Below, piece by piece: positions 4,821 to 23,561 of a stretch of 64,000 nt of DNA. Under the pieces are notes generated by a model. It did not search any database and was not told the DNA's origin. It saw only the letters and a list, made by a program, of their open reading frames with translations. The stretch lies in assembly GCF_001675285.1 (NCBI RefSeq), contig NZ_LSGQ01000006.1, positions 1-64,000 of the forward strand. The letters run 5' to 3'. Each line of letters starts with the position of its first letter. Position 1 is the first letter of the stretch. The translations under genes and the position numbers were made by a program. Source of the stretch: Elizabethkingia miricola (GTDB taxonomy: Bacteria; Bacteroidota; Bacteroidia; Flavobacteriales; Weeksellaceae).

Positions 4821-4834
4821 TTTTATTCCAGCTT

Positions 4835-5044
4835 TTAGCATTCTATCCAACGAACAATATACTGACGGATAATTTTTTCAAAGAATTCAAGACTGTTTTC
4901 AAATCCTACAGCCTCATATTTATTAATGGTAAAACAGGTTTGCCCAACATTTTTATAACTTCCCATATTTACAGTTTTGATTCCGGCAATAGCAGAAACC
5001 ACAGCTGCAATTATAAACAGATTTAGTAAAATTCGTTTCTTCAT
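4835..5044 (-). CDS. Small exported or membrane protein
   Basis: A 69-residue protein. Residues 1-22 form a hydrophobic signal or anchor (LLNLFIIAAVVSAIAGI) after a basic MKKR start. The rest is soluble and carries two cysteines. I recognise no family. It starts the leftward transcript that continues into the DUF5694 gene, and lies back to back with the LuxR regulator at 5145. Confidence 0.5.
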   Translation of the reverse strand: MKKRILLNLFIIAAVVSAIAGIKTVNMGSYKNVGQTCFTINKYEAVGFENSLEFFEKIIRQYIVRWIEC

Positions 5045-21072: not shown

Positions 21073-21137
21073 GCCACCAATCTAATAATCTTTAATCGTC
21101 TTTATTCTAATAATATTTTGTAGATTTGTTATAGATA

Positions 21138-21200
21138 ATGAACATCAGACGTAACATATTATTTTCATTCTTCTTTTTTGGCCTCCAAGGGCCAAGATAA
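21138..21200 (+). CDS. Phe-rich leader peptide of the PheRS gene
   Basis: A 20-codon frame (ATG 21138, TAA 21198-21200) encodes MNIRRNIL followed by F-S-F-F-F-F and GLQGPR. Five of 20 residues are Phe, four of them consecutive (codons 11-14). It lies 103 bp before a phenylalanyl-tRNA synthetase gene. Leader peptides rich in the cognate amino acid are the sensing element of attenuated operons, such as pheM ahead of pheST in E. coli. A TAGATTTG promoter-like element at 21121-21128 lies just upstream, so the leader transcript would begin close to the ATG. Confidence 0.75.
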   Translation: MNIRRNILFSFFFFGLQGPR

Positions 21201-21224
21201 TTAACTACGTCTGTTGCGTACAGA
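21146..21224 (+). promoter_or_regulatory. Leader RNA with alternative hairpins (attenuator candidate)
   Basis: CAGACGTA (21146-21153, codons 3-6 of the leader peptide) can pair with TACGTCTG (21206-21213). Inside lies TTGGCC-loop-GGCCAA (21178-21195), which starts at the last Phe codon. The 3' arm can alternatively pair locally (TCTGT/ACAGA, 21210-21224). A ribosome stalled on the Phe codons would block some of these pairings. No strong U-tract follows, so termination or translation control cannot be told apart. Confidence 0.55.
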
Positions 21225-21303
21225 TATACCATATTAAATTCTCACCTTATTTTAAATCAAAAATCTACGACATACAAATGTCGCAGAAAGTAATTATTTA
21301 ATT

Positions 21304-22338
21304 ATGAACAATATATCAAATCTAATAAATGAAAAGCGCAGTAAAAAACTGCATAACAATAAACTACACCCTGTATGCCAGTCAAAAGAAAAGATACAAT
21401 TATACTTCAATGATTTTTCAGTATTTGATGATTTAAATGAAATTGTAAGTATTAAAGACAACTTTGATGATTTACTGATTCCGATGGATCATCCTGCCCG
21501 ATCTGCAAATGATACATATTATGCAGATAATGATCATGTCCTTAGAACACAAACTTCTGCACATCAGAATATGCTGCTTAAGGCTGGCCATAAAAGATTC
21601 ATTGCTTCGGGCGATGTATACCGCAAAGACACTATTGACAAAACTCATTATCCGGTTTTCCATCAGATGGAAGGTGTAAAAATTTTACCAGCCGGAGCTG
21701 ATGCTCTGGATGATTTAAAGAAAACACTGGAAGGATTGATTCAGTATTTATATCCCGGAAAAGAATATAGATTTTTAGATGATTATTTTCCTTTTACAGA
21801 ACCTTCATTACAAATAGAAGTATTACAAAATAAAGAATGGATGGAAGTATTGGGAGCAGGTGTAATACATCCTCAAATTCTAAAAAACTGCAATATAGAA
21901 GGTACCGGCTGGGCTTTTGGATTAGGTCTGGATCGTTTGCTGCTTTCTTATTGTAATATCCCCGATATACGGTATTTATGGACAGACGATTTACGTTTCA
22001 TTTCACAATTCGAAAATGGATTGACCGAATTTCAGCAATATTCAAAATATCCACCTGTGTATAAAGACATATCATTCTGGGTAAACGAATATACTGAGAA
22101 TAAAGAAGGCAACTGGAATGAATATAATAATCTCTGTGAAGTTATACGAGAAGAAGGTAATGATCTTGTAGAAAGCATTGACCTGCTGGACAAATTTTGT
22201 AAAGAAAACAAAACATCTTTAGCTTATCGCATTATGTACAGGTCTAATGAAAGAACCTTGCTAAATGATGAAATTAATGAAAAACAGGAACGTATCAGAG
22301 CTACATTGTCTGAAAATTTTGACATTATACTAAGATAA
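21304..22338 (+). CDS. Monomeric, mitochondrial-type phenylalanyl-tRNA synthetase
   Basis: A 344-residue class II aminoacyl-tRNA synthetase. The catalytic core carries the PheS signatures: MDHPARSANDTYY, motif 2 RFIASGDVYRKDTIDKTH plus FHQMEG, YFPFTEPSLQIEV, the VLGAGVIHP loop, and motif 3 GWAFGLGLDRLLL. It lacks the N-terminal coiled coil of bacterial PheS. From about residue 245 it has a ferredoxin-fold anticodon-binding domain (YPPVYKDISFWV to RIMYRSNERTLLNDEINEKQ) that bacteria normally carry on PheT. This is the architecture of the single-chain mitochondrial enzyme. It is presumably a second PheRS beside the cell's alpha2-beta2 enzyme, under its own Phe leader. Confidence 0.9.
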   Translation: MNNISNLINEKRSKKLHNNKLHPVCQSKEKIQLYFNDFSVFDDLNEIVSIKDNFDDLLIPMDHPARSANDTYYADNDHVLRTQTSAHQNMLLKAGHKRFIASGDVYRKDTIDKTHYPVFHQMEGVKILPAGADALDDLKKTLEGLIQYLYPGKEYRFLDDYFPFTEPSLQIEVLQNKEWMEVLGAGVIHPQILKNCNIEGTGWAFGLGLDRLLLSYCNIPDIRYLWTDDLRFISQFENGLTEFQQYSKYPPVYKDISFWVNEYTENKEGNWNEYNNLCEVIREEGNDLVESIDLLDKFCKENKTSLAYRIMYRSNERTLLNDEINEKQERIRATLSENFDIILR

Positions 22339-22376: not shown

Positions 22377-22554
22377 ATATAATTGATTTATAAATGAAGT
22401 ATAAAATTTCTATAAATCAATCTGTTTATAATCTCCGGCTTTCAGGAATTACTAATGATGAATAAGTTATTCTTTAGGAAAAAGTAATACTCTATTTATT
22501 TGCAGATTGATAAATATATCTATAATTTGAAAGTTGAATCAAAAAAATTTTATT

Positions 22555-22737
22555 ATGAAAAAATTACGACAACTTTCAAGACATGATCTTAAAAATGTAA
22601 AAGGTAGTGCAGCATGCAGTATGTGGTATAATCATACTGCTTCTTGCGGAGTTAGTTATGGTTTATGCTTTGATAACTATACAAGCATCGACGATATGCA
22701 AAAGGCTGTTGATGATCTGGATAAAATTAAATGCTAA
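22555..22737 (+). CDS. Cysteine-containing leader peptide 1
   Basis: A 60-residue precursor starting MKKLRQLSRHDLKNVKGS, the Bacteroidota bacteriocin-like leader; an in-frame ATG 21 bp upstream is less likely because all family members start MKK/MKN. The core has four cysteines and an acidic C-terminal helix (DDMQKAVDDLDKIKC). Its promoter region does not carry the palindrome found before the next three genes. No maturation or export gene lies nearby. Confidence 0.75.
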   Translation: MKKLRQLSRHDLKNVKGSAACSMWYNHTASCGVSYGLCFDNYTSIDDMQKAVDDLDKIKC

Positions 22738-22785
22738 AAACTTTCAATTTTCTATTCATTTATATTTAAATTTCTTCACAATAAG

Positions 22786-22817
22786 TCACTTTAAAGTGAA
22801 TAAATGTATTATATTTG
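22786..22817 (+). promoter_or_regulatory. Palindrome plus promoter of leader peptide 2
   Basis: TCACTTTAAAGTGA (22786-22799) is a perfect 14-bp palindrome, followed after 10 bp by TATATTTG (22810-22817), which matches the Bacteroidota -7 element TAnnTTTG. The palindrome starts 57 bp before the ATG and would overlap the -33 region. Confidence 0.7.
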
Positions 22818-22842
22818 CTCTACACCAAATAAATATAGTATT

Positions 22843-23016
22843 ATGAAAAATTTAAAGAAGATTTCCAGAAACGAACTTAAATCTGTTGTAGGTGGTATCG
22901 GTCCTAATGAAGCTCTTCCATTTTGTACAAAACCAAGGCAAATAGAGCTTTGGGAAATGCAATGCAGTCCTTTGGATACCGAACCATGTTATGCAGCAGG
23001 TTGCAGAATGAAGTAA
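22843..23016 (+). CDS. Cysteine-containing leader peptide 2
   Basis: A 57-residue precursor with leader MKNLKKISRNELKSVVGGIG; the canonical VVGG site is intact, unlike the KGS variants of its neighbours. The core contains four cysteines (FCTKPRQ, MQCSP, EPCYAAGC). It has its own palindrome-bearing promoter and its own terminator, so it is monocistronic. By family it would be cleaved after GG and exported by a peptidase-containing ABC transporter, which is not in the window. Confidence 0.78.
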   Translation: MKNLKKISRNELKSVVGGIGPNEALPFCTKPRQIELWEMQCSPLDTEPCYAAGCRMK

Positions 23017-23026
23017 TTAAAAAGAG

Positions 23027-23058
23027 CAGCTGATATTTTTATCAGCTGTTTTTATTTT
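23027..23058 (+). terminator. Terminator of leader peptide 2
   Basis: CAGCTGAT and ATCAGCTG pair around a 6-base loop, followed by TTTTTATTTTT. Confidence 0.9.
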
Positions 23059-23115
23059 TACCTTCTACATCAAACTTCTCTGTTTATTAAAATCATAAAT
23101 ATCTTTACAATTAAG

Positions 23116-23146
23116 TCACTTTTAAGTGAATAAACATTATATTTAC
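23116..23146 (+). promoter_or_regulatory. Palindrome plus promoter of leader peptide 3
   Basis: TCACTTTTAAGTGA (23116-23129) starts 56 bp before the ATG and is followed by TATATTTA (23139-23146). It is the second copy of the element upstream of leader peptide 2. Confidence 0.65.
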
Positions 23147-23171
23147 ACCTTAACCAAATAAATAATTTATT

Positions 23172-23336
23172 ATGAAAAAGTTATCAAAAAAAAATCTGAA
23201 AGACATTAAAGGAAGTGATGATTGGAAATCATGTAATACATCTTATGATTGTAGACCCGGTAATTATGTATGCTGCTTTGGTGGATGTTATAAAACCACA
23301 GAATTGGAATACTTACCTATATGTCCAAATGATTAA
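23172..23336 (+). CDS. Knottin-like six-cysteine leader peptide A
   Basis: A 54-residue precursor: leader MKKLSKKNLKDIKGS, then a core with cysteines at 21, 27, 34, 35, 39 and 51. The spacing C-x5-C-x6-CC-x3-C-x11-C fits the inhibitor-cystine-knot pattern (C-C-CC-C-C) known from small toxins and defensive peptides. The next gene is a paralogue with identical cysteine positions. A disulfide-bonded secreted mini-protein is inferred; activity is unknown. The gene is too short for default gene callers and may be missed in annotations. Confidence 0.8.
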   Translation: MKKLSKKNLKDIKGSDDWKSCNTSYDCRPGNYVCCFGGCYKTTELEYLPICPND

Positions 23337-23337
23337 A

Positions 23338-23367
23338 TCATTATAAAGTGAGCAAACATTATATTTA
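23338..23367 (+). promoter_or_regulatory. Degenerate palindrome plus promoter of leader peptide 4
   Basis: TCATTATAAAGTGA (23338-23351) matches the perfect palindrome at 12 of 14 positions, starts 56 bp before the ATG, and is followed by TATATTTA (23360-23367). It begins 2 bp after the stop codon of the previous gene, consistent with a tandem duplication of promoter plus gene. Confidence 0.55.
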
Positions 23368-23393
23368 TACCTTATCCAAATAAATAATTTATT

Positions 23394-23561
23394 ATGAAAA
23401 AGTTATCGAAAAAAGATCTAAAGGCTATTAAAGGAAGTGGTGAAGGAGAAACTTGCCATAGCCGTAGAGACTGTCGTACGGGAAATTATGTATGTTGTTT
23501 TGGTACATGTCAAAAAACAACTGAAATGGAGTATTTACCTCAATGCCCAGAAGATAATTAA
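23394..23561 (+). CDS. Knottin-like six-cysteine leader peptide B
   Basis: A 55-residue paralogue of the previous gene: leader MKKLSKKDLKAIKGS, cysteines again at 21, 27, 34, 35, 39 and 51, and shared GNYVCCFG and KTTE.EYLP blocks. Between the cysteines the sequence has changed more (HSRRD for NTSYD), as expected of peptides under diversifying selection, though two copies cannot prove it. It has its own promoter element and the shared terminator downstream. Confidence 0.8.
   Translation: MKKLSKKDLKAIKGSGEGETCHSRRDCRTGNYVCCFGTCQKTTEMEYLPQCPEDN

Follow-up and report, generated by a model that had tools for sequence, protein, structure and literature searches.

The window analysed here, a 64,000-nucleotide stretch (positions 1 to 64,000, forward strand) of Elizabethkingia miricola contig NZ_LSGQ01000006.1, carries on its + strand a short Phe-rich ORF, a series of hairpins and a gene for an auxiliary single-chain phenylalanyl-tRNA synthetase (PheRS) of the mitochondrial type (344 aa; 21304-22338). 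An ORF scan places the Phe-rich frame at 21138-21200, from ATG to TAA, exactly as the first-pass annotation had claimed; it encodes the 20-residue peptide MNIRRNILFSFFFFGLQGPR and is conserved in relatives. Nine nucleotides before its start lies TAGATTTG (21121-21128, + strand), which we name a Bacteroidota-type promoter box on the assumption that TAnnTT[TC][GA] is the -7 consensus of this phylum. Given this spacing, the leader should be near the transcript 5' end. A box of this pattern was found at most 60 nt upstream of the leader start in 11 of 14 leaders, the exceptions being L011, L013 and L017.

The identity of the auxiliary gene was derived from sequence, domains and predicted fold. The class II PheRS core (tRNA-synt_2d) and a C-terminal FDX-ACB domain are present in one chain, the predicted fold matches mtPheRS over its full length, and the protein passes the cut-off of the mitochondrial PheRS model. 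It contains FPFT, FHQM and GWAFG (scored as FPF, FHQxE and GxAFG, all of which were found), motifs that line the Phe pocket of PheRS. A 2010 review names FPF residues for this pocket and distinguishes three forms of PheRS, the monomer being mitochondrial (PMC3275996). Initially the gene had been annotated simply as a phenylalanyl-tRNA synthetase gene; its product is indeed PheRS-like, but belongs to the single-chain mitochondrial type and corresponds to neither pheS nor pheT. Furthermore, a PheS-like gene lies elsewhere in the same genome (G000:C1:420397-421104, 37% identity), and a second, PheS-like match was detected in all 14 carrier genomes (35-40% identity; as two fragments in G871). The auxiliary product would charge tRNA-Phe, replacing or supplementing the housekeeping enzyme.

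Counting the window's own genome, the auxiliary gene was found in 2 of 197 genomes of the family, 2 of 6 of the genus, 1 of 395 of the order and 1 of 395 of the phylum, and in 2 of 301 genomes of the family of Sphingobacterium detergens (G865). A pattern scan of 84,980 species genomes yielded at least 15 loci, in Elizabethkingia, Chryseobacterium, Sphingobacterium, Pedobacter, Myroides and two MAGs (L016 and L017); the match in the window's own genus (G074) has the same coordinates as L004 of Elizabethkingia sp. YR214. Two copies in S. tabacisoli sit on different scaffolds, and the S. yanglingense gene (L013, 5001-6032) has an in-frame stop with its leader retained. Between the Chryseobacterium jejuense strains CC143 and DSM 19299, PheS is 99% identical; the CC143 PheS is 56% identical to that of Sphingobacterium. 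At the DNA level, the auxiliary gene of CC143 is 92-93% identical to the Pedobacter copies and 70% identical to the DSM 19299 copy, and its leader is Pedobacter-like. Judged from these comparisons, the auxiliary PheRS gene is rare and mobile, and has been transferred with its leader. A search for plasmid or phage carriage gave no match of at least 60% identity in PLSDB or INPHARED.

An ORF of 12-60 aa holding FFFF was present in 2 of 2000 dinucleotide-preserving shuffles of 21073-21303 when ATG, GTG and TTG starts were allowed, and in 0 of 2000 of a second, ATG-only set. An in-frame Phe-run leader with ATG or GTG start precedes the auxiliary gene at 13 of 16 loci, which belong to more than a single family of Bacteroidota; 11 of these leaders are close and two, L016 and L017, are diverged. 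Among the 11 intact leaders, pairwise codon differences in frame 0 comprised 158 synonymous and 337 non-synonymous changes (31/411 and 69/365 in the other two frames). The leaders are 20 or 21 codons long, differing by a whole codon, and TAA is the stop in 11 of 11. Both the frame and the Phe codons, whose loss in relatives the first-pass annotation had named as evidence against its reading, are thus kept. No Phe run was found in L015 and L018, an L018 ORF with four scattered Phe codons not being counted. L011 (Pedobacter caeni) keeps the Phe run and the hairpins and has no in-frame ATG or GTG; this region (4830-5000) resembles a natural mutant, with an altered promoter box, one changed base in hairpin A and an open gene. 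Since the two Myroides copies have no Phe-run leader and L011 has no in-frame start, the control would be dispensable. We conclude from the comparison of sequences that a conserved Phe-codon leader before this PheRS gene is well supported, and by analogy the gene would be induced when charged Phe-tRNA falls.

An alignment of 12 leaders revealed three conserved hairpins on the + strand. Hairpin A (21176-21197; 21176-21184 paired with 21189-21197) overlaps the final Phe codons and extends to the stop, and 99.1% of its alignment cells are paired, with both-side change in one of nine pairs. Hairpin B (21207-21227; core 21209-21214 with 21220-21225, loop TGCGT) follows the stop and is paired in 94.8% of cells, one C-G pair being replaced by U-A in both Elizabethkingia rows. 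Hairpin C (21265-21286; 21265-21272 with 21279-21286) ends 17 nt before the gene start; 91.6% of its cells are paired, and three of eight pairs have changed on both sides. Between B and C lies a spacer (21228-21264) that by composition is G-free in the window and in which C outnumbers G in all 12 leaders; 21 of 1668 window stretches of the same length and similar C+G are as G-poor. In the window, read on the - strand only, hairpin C and the adjacent A-run (21264-21287) look like an intrinsic terminator.

Taken together, hairpins A-C are paired in 95.3% of cells, with both-side changes in 5 of 25 pairs, and each of pairing percentage, both-side changes and covariation score was reached by 0 of 500 shuffles; slid controls were 28-45% paired. 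The number of further pair types was not above shuffles (141 of 500 reached the count). This conservation could reflect some other RNA function. GC-rich hairpins similar to hairpin A were also read by eye right after the Phe run in L016 and L017. When a model of the leader RNA was run against 15 carrier genomes, it gave 12 strong matches and five weak ones, which we judged to be chance. Reuse of the leader RNA elsewhere was rejected, each of the 12 strong matches lying at the leader of an auxiliary PheRS gene. At 27 further loci (his, viral and L015-L018), the model gave 15 weak matches, the best of them (E 0.31) at the L016 leader. No T-box or other Rfam element reached the gathering score in the window or in 14 loci.

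The first-pass annotation had also proposed a long-range pairing of CAGACGTA (21146-21153) with TACGTCTG (21206-21213) and a local alternative. Both are present on the + strand of the window, where the 3' arm overlaps the 5' arm of hairpin B and can pair locally in the hairpin B core instead, but of the 12 aligned leaders only the two from Elizabethkingia have the complete helix. In the window, the duplex was matched by 0 of 300 shuffles (fraction 0.003 in a second run), and by energy it is strong in the window and L004 only. Across the 12 leaders, 55.2% of its cells are paired and its covariation score was reached by 147 of 500 shuffles. Moreover, in 11 Phe leaders (L011 left out), swapped partners were as good as the cognate ones in 18005 of 20000 permutations. 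Hairpins A-C are conserved, and the competitor of hairpin B is strong only in Elizabethkingia. We therefore regard hairpin B as the conserved element and the helix as an Elizabethkingia feature. Another helix, joining the start of the leader to the T-rich stretch that precedes hairpin C, was compared without L006, where the spacer was not found, and L011. It was rejected: it is no better than chance in the window (shuffle fraction 0.914) and good in L008 and L010 (0.024 and 0.020).

How such a leader could act on the downstream gene was addressed with terminator and gene-start predictions. With loops of up to 8, no terminator-like site was found on the + strand near the window leader. In 14 leaders no plausible intrinsic terminator was found, and only weak pattern matches were obtained in three: strict criteria returned L017, weakly, and relaxed criteria (loops up to 12) returned L017 together with L005 and L006, where TTCTATAT comes after hairpin A. 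The hisG leader of the same genome as the window (L105, about 1335-1460, MKFNAVHHHHHHSCNRRVD) served as a control; it has a clear classical intrinsic terminator, which was found with loops up to 12 and missed at 8 or less; the terminator of the C. jejuense hisG leader was found by the strict scan. Sequestration of the gene start was rejected: with the ribosome placed at three positions, the predicted openness shifted by no more than 0.11 in any of the 14 leaders. The output step resembles neither a canonical intrinsic terminator nor gene-start sequestration. Rho-dependent termination in the G-poor spacer and control of mRNA stability are both candidates; the spacer between B and C would suit Rho and proves nothing.

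Leaders of his operons in Sphingobacteriaceae offer a parallel. Among 36 hisG loci (6 plus 30 of 49 matches), L107 and L110, which showed no His leader, were left out and 34 were scanned. A rule of at least three His codons flagged 19, four of which were set aside as probably other coding sequence. The remainder were L105, L109 and 13 sphingobacterial leaders chosen by eye (at about 1315-1480 in L106, L108, L116, L119, L120, L123, L125, L131-L133, L136, L140 and L141). TACGT follows the stop in 10 of the 13, and in 7 the best hairpin, determined by script, has it as its loop; its chance in one random piece is 1140 in 20000. No terminator pattern was detected after the leader in 12 of the 13, the match in L108 being hairpin A itself. 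Pairing in their long-range helix is specific to the cognate partner: 0 of 20000 permutations did equally well, in a comparison from which relatedness was not removed. Rfam gave no family match in the 11 of the 13 that were searched, and the Phe leader RNA model gave no significant match to them; the kinship of Phe and his leaders is therefore one of layout. Like the Phe leader, the sphingobacterial his leaders combine a run of codons, a GC hairpin spanning the final codons and the stop codon, mostly a second hairpin and no terminator pattern. Unlike it, they concern another amino acid and have a supported long-range helix, which few Phe leaders have.

Virus-labelled contigs in IMG/VR also encode single-chain PheRS, with 41-56% identity. 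The 15 bacterial proteins group as a single clade (100/100) in a 37-row tree, and this clade joins 12 of 15 virus-labelled single-chain PheRS with moderate support (84/90), the other three being unplaced. The contigs (L071-L087) are large and their enzymes of the mitochondrial type, 9 of 10 scored passing the TIGR00469 cut-off; in L071, L072, L073 and L076, a TAAATTTG box lies just upstream. No three-Phe run was found in the two most Phe-rich upstream ORFs of 16 of the 17 contigs, and L080 ends at the contig edge. Of 13 different flanking proteins scanned, some resemble a tRNA nucleotidyltransferase, NAD-dependent DNA ligase, PcfJ, an IMPDH-type and an AlkB-type enzyme, and the others showed no resemblance. 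A BFVD fold search returned class II synthetases with query TM-scores of at most 0.45.

In bacteria, GNAT acetyltransferase and AraC-type regulator clusters recur beside the auxiliary gene (L005, L007-L011 and L014). The AraC-type cluster is present at 10 of 16 loci and the GNAT cluster at 7 of 16, and a neighbouring GNAT is weakly similar to MccE (E 3.4e-4). These neighbours are only suggestive, and we rejected the neighbourhood as a clue to function. Directly downstream in the window (22534-23561) are four small bacteriocin-like precursor ORFs of the leader_Chryseo type, two of them above the cut-off; a pattern search found such precursors only in the two Elizabethkingia loci, the window and L004, of the 16.

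The explanation that we favour, with a probability of roughly 0.68, is that a horizontally moving auxiliary PheRS gene is controlled by a translated Phe-codon leader. A ribosome would read the 20-codon leader near the transcript 5' end. When charged tRNA-Phe is plentiful, it would translate the Phe codons, pass through hairpin A and reach the stop, leaving expression of the auxiliary gene low. When charged tRNA-Phe is scarce, the ribosome would stall on the Phe run and keep hairpin A open, and the downstream gene would be expressed. We infer the stalling, the direction of control and the enzymatic activity. As to the benefit of the auxiliary enzyme, the use that we favour, again by analogy, would be bypass of an inhibited housekeeping PheRS.

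The first-pass annotation had likened this leader to pheM-pheST attenuation. In a classical pheM-like attenuator, the alternative states would be hairpin B and the long-range helix, and an intrinsic terminator after them would decide. The window contains both structures, which are mutually exclusive, the duplex beats shuffles there and in L004, and the sphingobacterial his leaders have a similar partner-specific helix. Nevertheless, the indifference of the 11 Phe leaders to swapped partners, the partial pairing of the helix in the 12-leader alignment and the failure to find a + strand terminator-like site in the window leader all speak against it, and the downstream gene is not pheST. Because the gene differs, being a single-chain auxiliary PheRS beside PheS, and no plausible terminator was found in the 14 leaders, the pheM-pheST mechanism is unsupported, and we consider it unlikely. 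Slightly less probable still is that the ORF is a by-product of a structured RNA, its Phe and Gly-Pro codons arising by accident from U-rich and GGCC segments. Paired columns of hairpin A do make up many of the best conserved ones; however, frame 0 has the higher synonymous fraction, lengths differ by a codon, and the stop is invariant. Moreover, codons 10, 12 and 13, which lie upstream of hairpin A, encode Phe in 11, 10 and 11 of the 11 intact leaders, with TTT/TTC exchange at codons 10 and 12.

Two further alternatives concern the enzyme. It is similarly improbable that it is an SrmL-type ligase rather than a PheRS, the leader sensing Phe-tRNA for another pathway. The window protein does pass the NCBIfam SrmL model (NF051887, 'PheS-related mystery ligase SrmL'; 317.6 bits over a cut-off of 300), and 6 of 6 further Bacteroidota members score 308.9-336.3, but the mitochondrial PheRS cut-off is passed too, the full-length fold match is to mtPheRS, and the tree separates the SrmL proteins from the Bacteroidota group. 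Furthermore, L039 and L040, the two high-scoring SrmL reference members compared (514.7 and 524 bits; 27-28% identity to the window protein), have HPYT instead of FPFT; the FPF motif is thus lost in them and retained in the Bacteroidota group. The NF051887 cut-off thus spans two groups, one without the Phe-pocket motif and one PheRS-like. A stronger contender, at a little under even odds, is that the auxiliary PheRS is a backup for stress or low Phe, or a virus gene that was domesticated and kept as protection from tRNA- or PheRS-damaging agents, and not a bypass of an inhibitor. This alternative is about what the gene is used for and leaves the leader aside, and it is compatible with control by a translated Phe-codon leader. 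In its favour are the single-chain PheRS of the virus-labelled contigs and the GNAT and AraC-type neighbours, which are only suggestive, and no inhibitor or producer is known for this case. On the other side, the rarity of the gene, its transfer between families and its coexistence with PheS resemble known resistant duplicates such as TrpRS1 (PMC9437257, PMC6804068).

The gene is the more surprising part of the locus: a transferable auxiliary mitochondrial-type PheRS in bacteria. A conserved bacterial single-chain PheRS with relatives on large virus-labelled contigs would bear on the origin of the mitochondrial enzyme and would also inform how cells survive PheRS poisoning. The Phe-codon leader in turn opens the physiological trigger to direct testing and draws attention to Bacteroidota leaders that seem to act without an intrinsic terminator. 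As a tentative extension, and one that we hold doubtful, an inducible cassette for a single-chain mitochondrial-type PheRS may be exchanged among Bacteroidota and rescue cells with a poisoned housekeeping PheRS. Its Phe-codon leader, which has no terminator, would then represent a leader class with the same layout as in sphingobacterial his operons and an output mechanism undescribed in the searchable literature.

Among titles and the starts of abstracts, with subscription papers mostly outside the searched literature, no recognised Phe leader before a single-chain bacterial PheRS appeared. Bacteroid-trp (RF01692) is listed as a candidate structured RNA of Bacteroidetes (PMC2864571). Its gene differs from that of the Phe leader, and no over-threshold RF01692 match was found in six genomes. 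For leaders of Flavobacterium psychrophilum and Bacteroides thetaiotaomicron, one paper infers leader-peptide attenuation upstream of amino-acid operons (PMC9723704), and another compares short ORFs in 5' UTRs to leader peptides (PMC7366714). Unlike human mitochondrial PheRS (PDB 3cmq), the auxiliary enzyme is bacterial and stands beside a PheS-like gene; to SrmL (NF051887) it is alike in scoring just above the cut-off and unlike the two high-scoring members without FPF.

In E. coli, the pheM leader of the pheST operon encodes a short Phe-rich peptide before the PheRS genes. The locus described here shares with pheM-pheST the short Phe-rich leader before a PheRS and the proposed induction at uncharged Phe-tRNA, and differs in that the regulated gene encodes a single-chain auxiliary PheRS and is preceded by no plausible intrinsic terminator. 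Streptomyces TrpRS1 is regulated via leader codons for its cognate amino acid. It is presented in two papers as an indolmycin-resistant duplicate synthetase (PMC9437257, PMC6804068). Although the amino acid here is Phe and not Trp, the phylum is Bacteroidota and the enzyme architecture is another, both cases place a second synthetase beside the housekeeping one, behind leader codons for the cognate amino acid.
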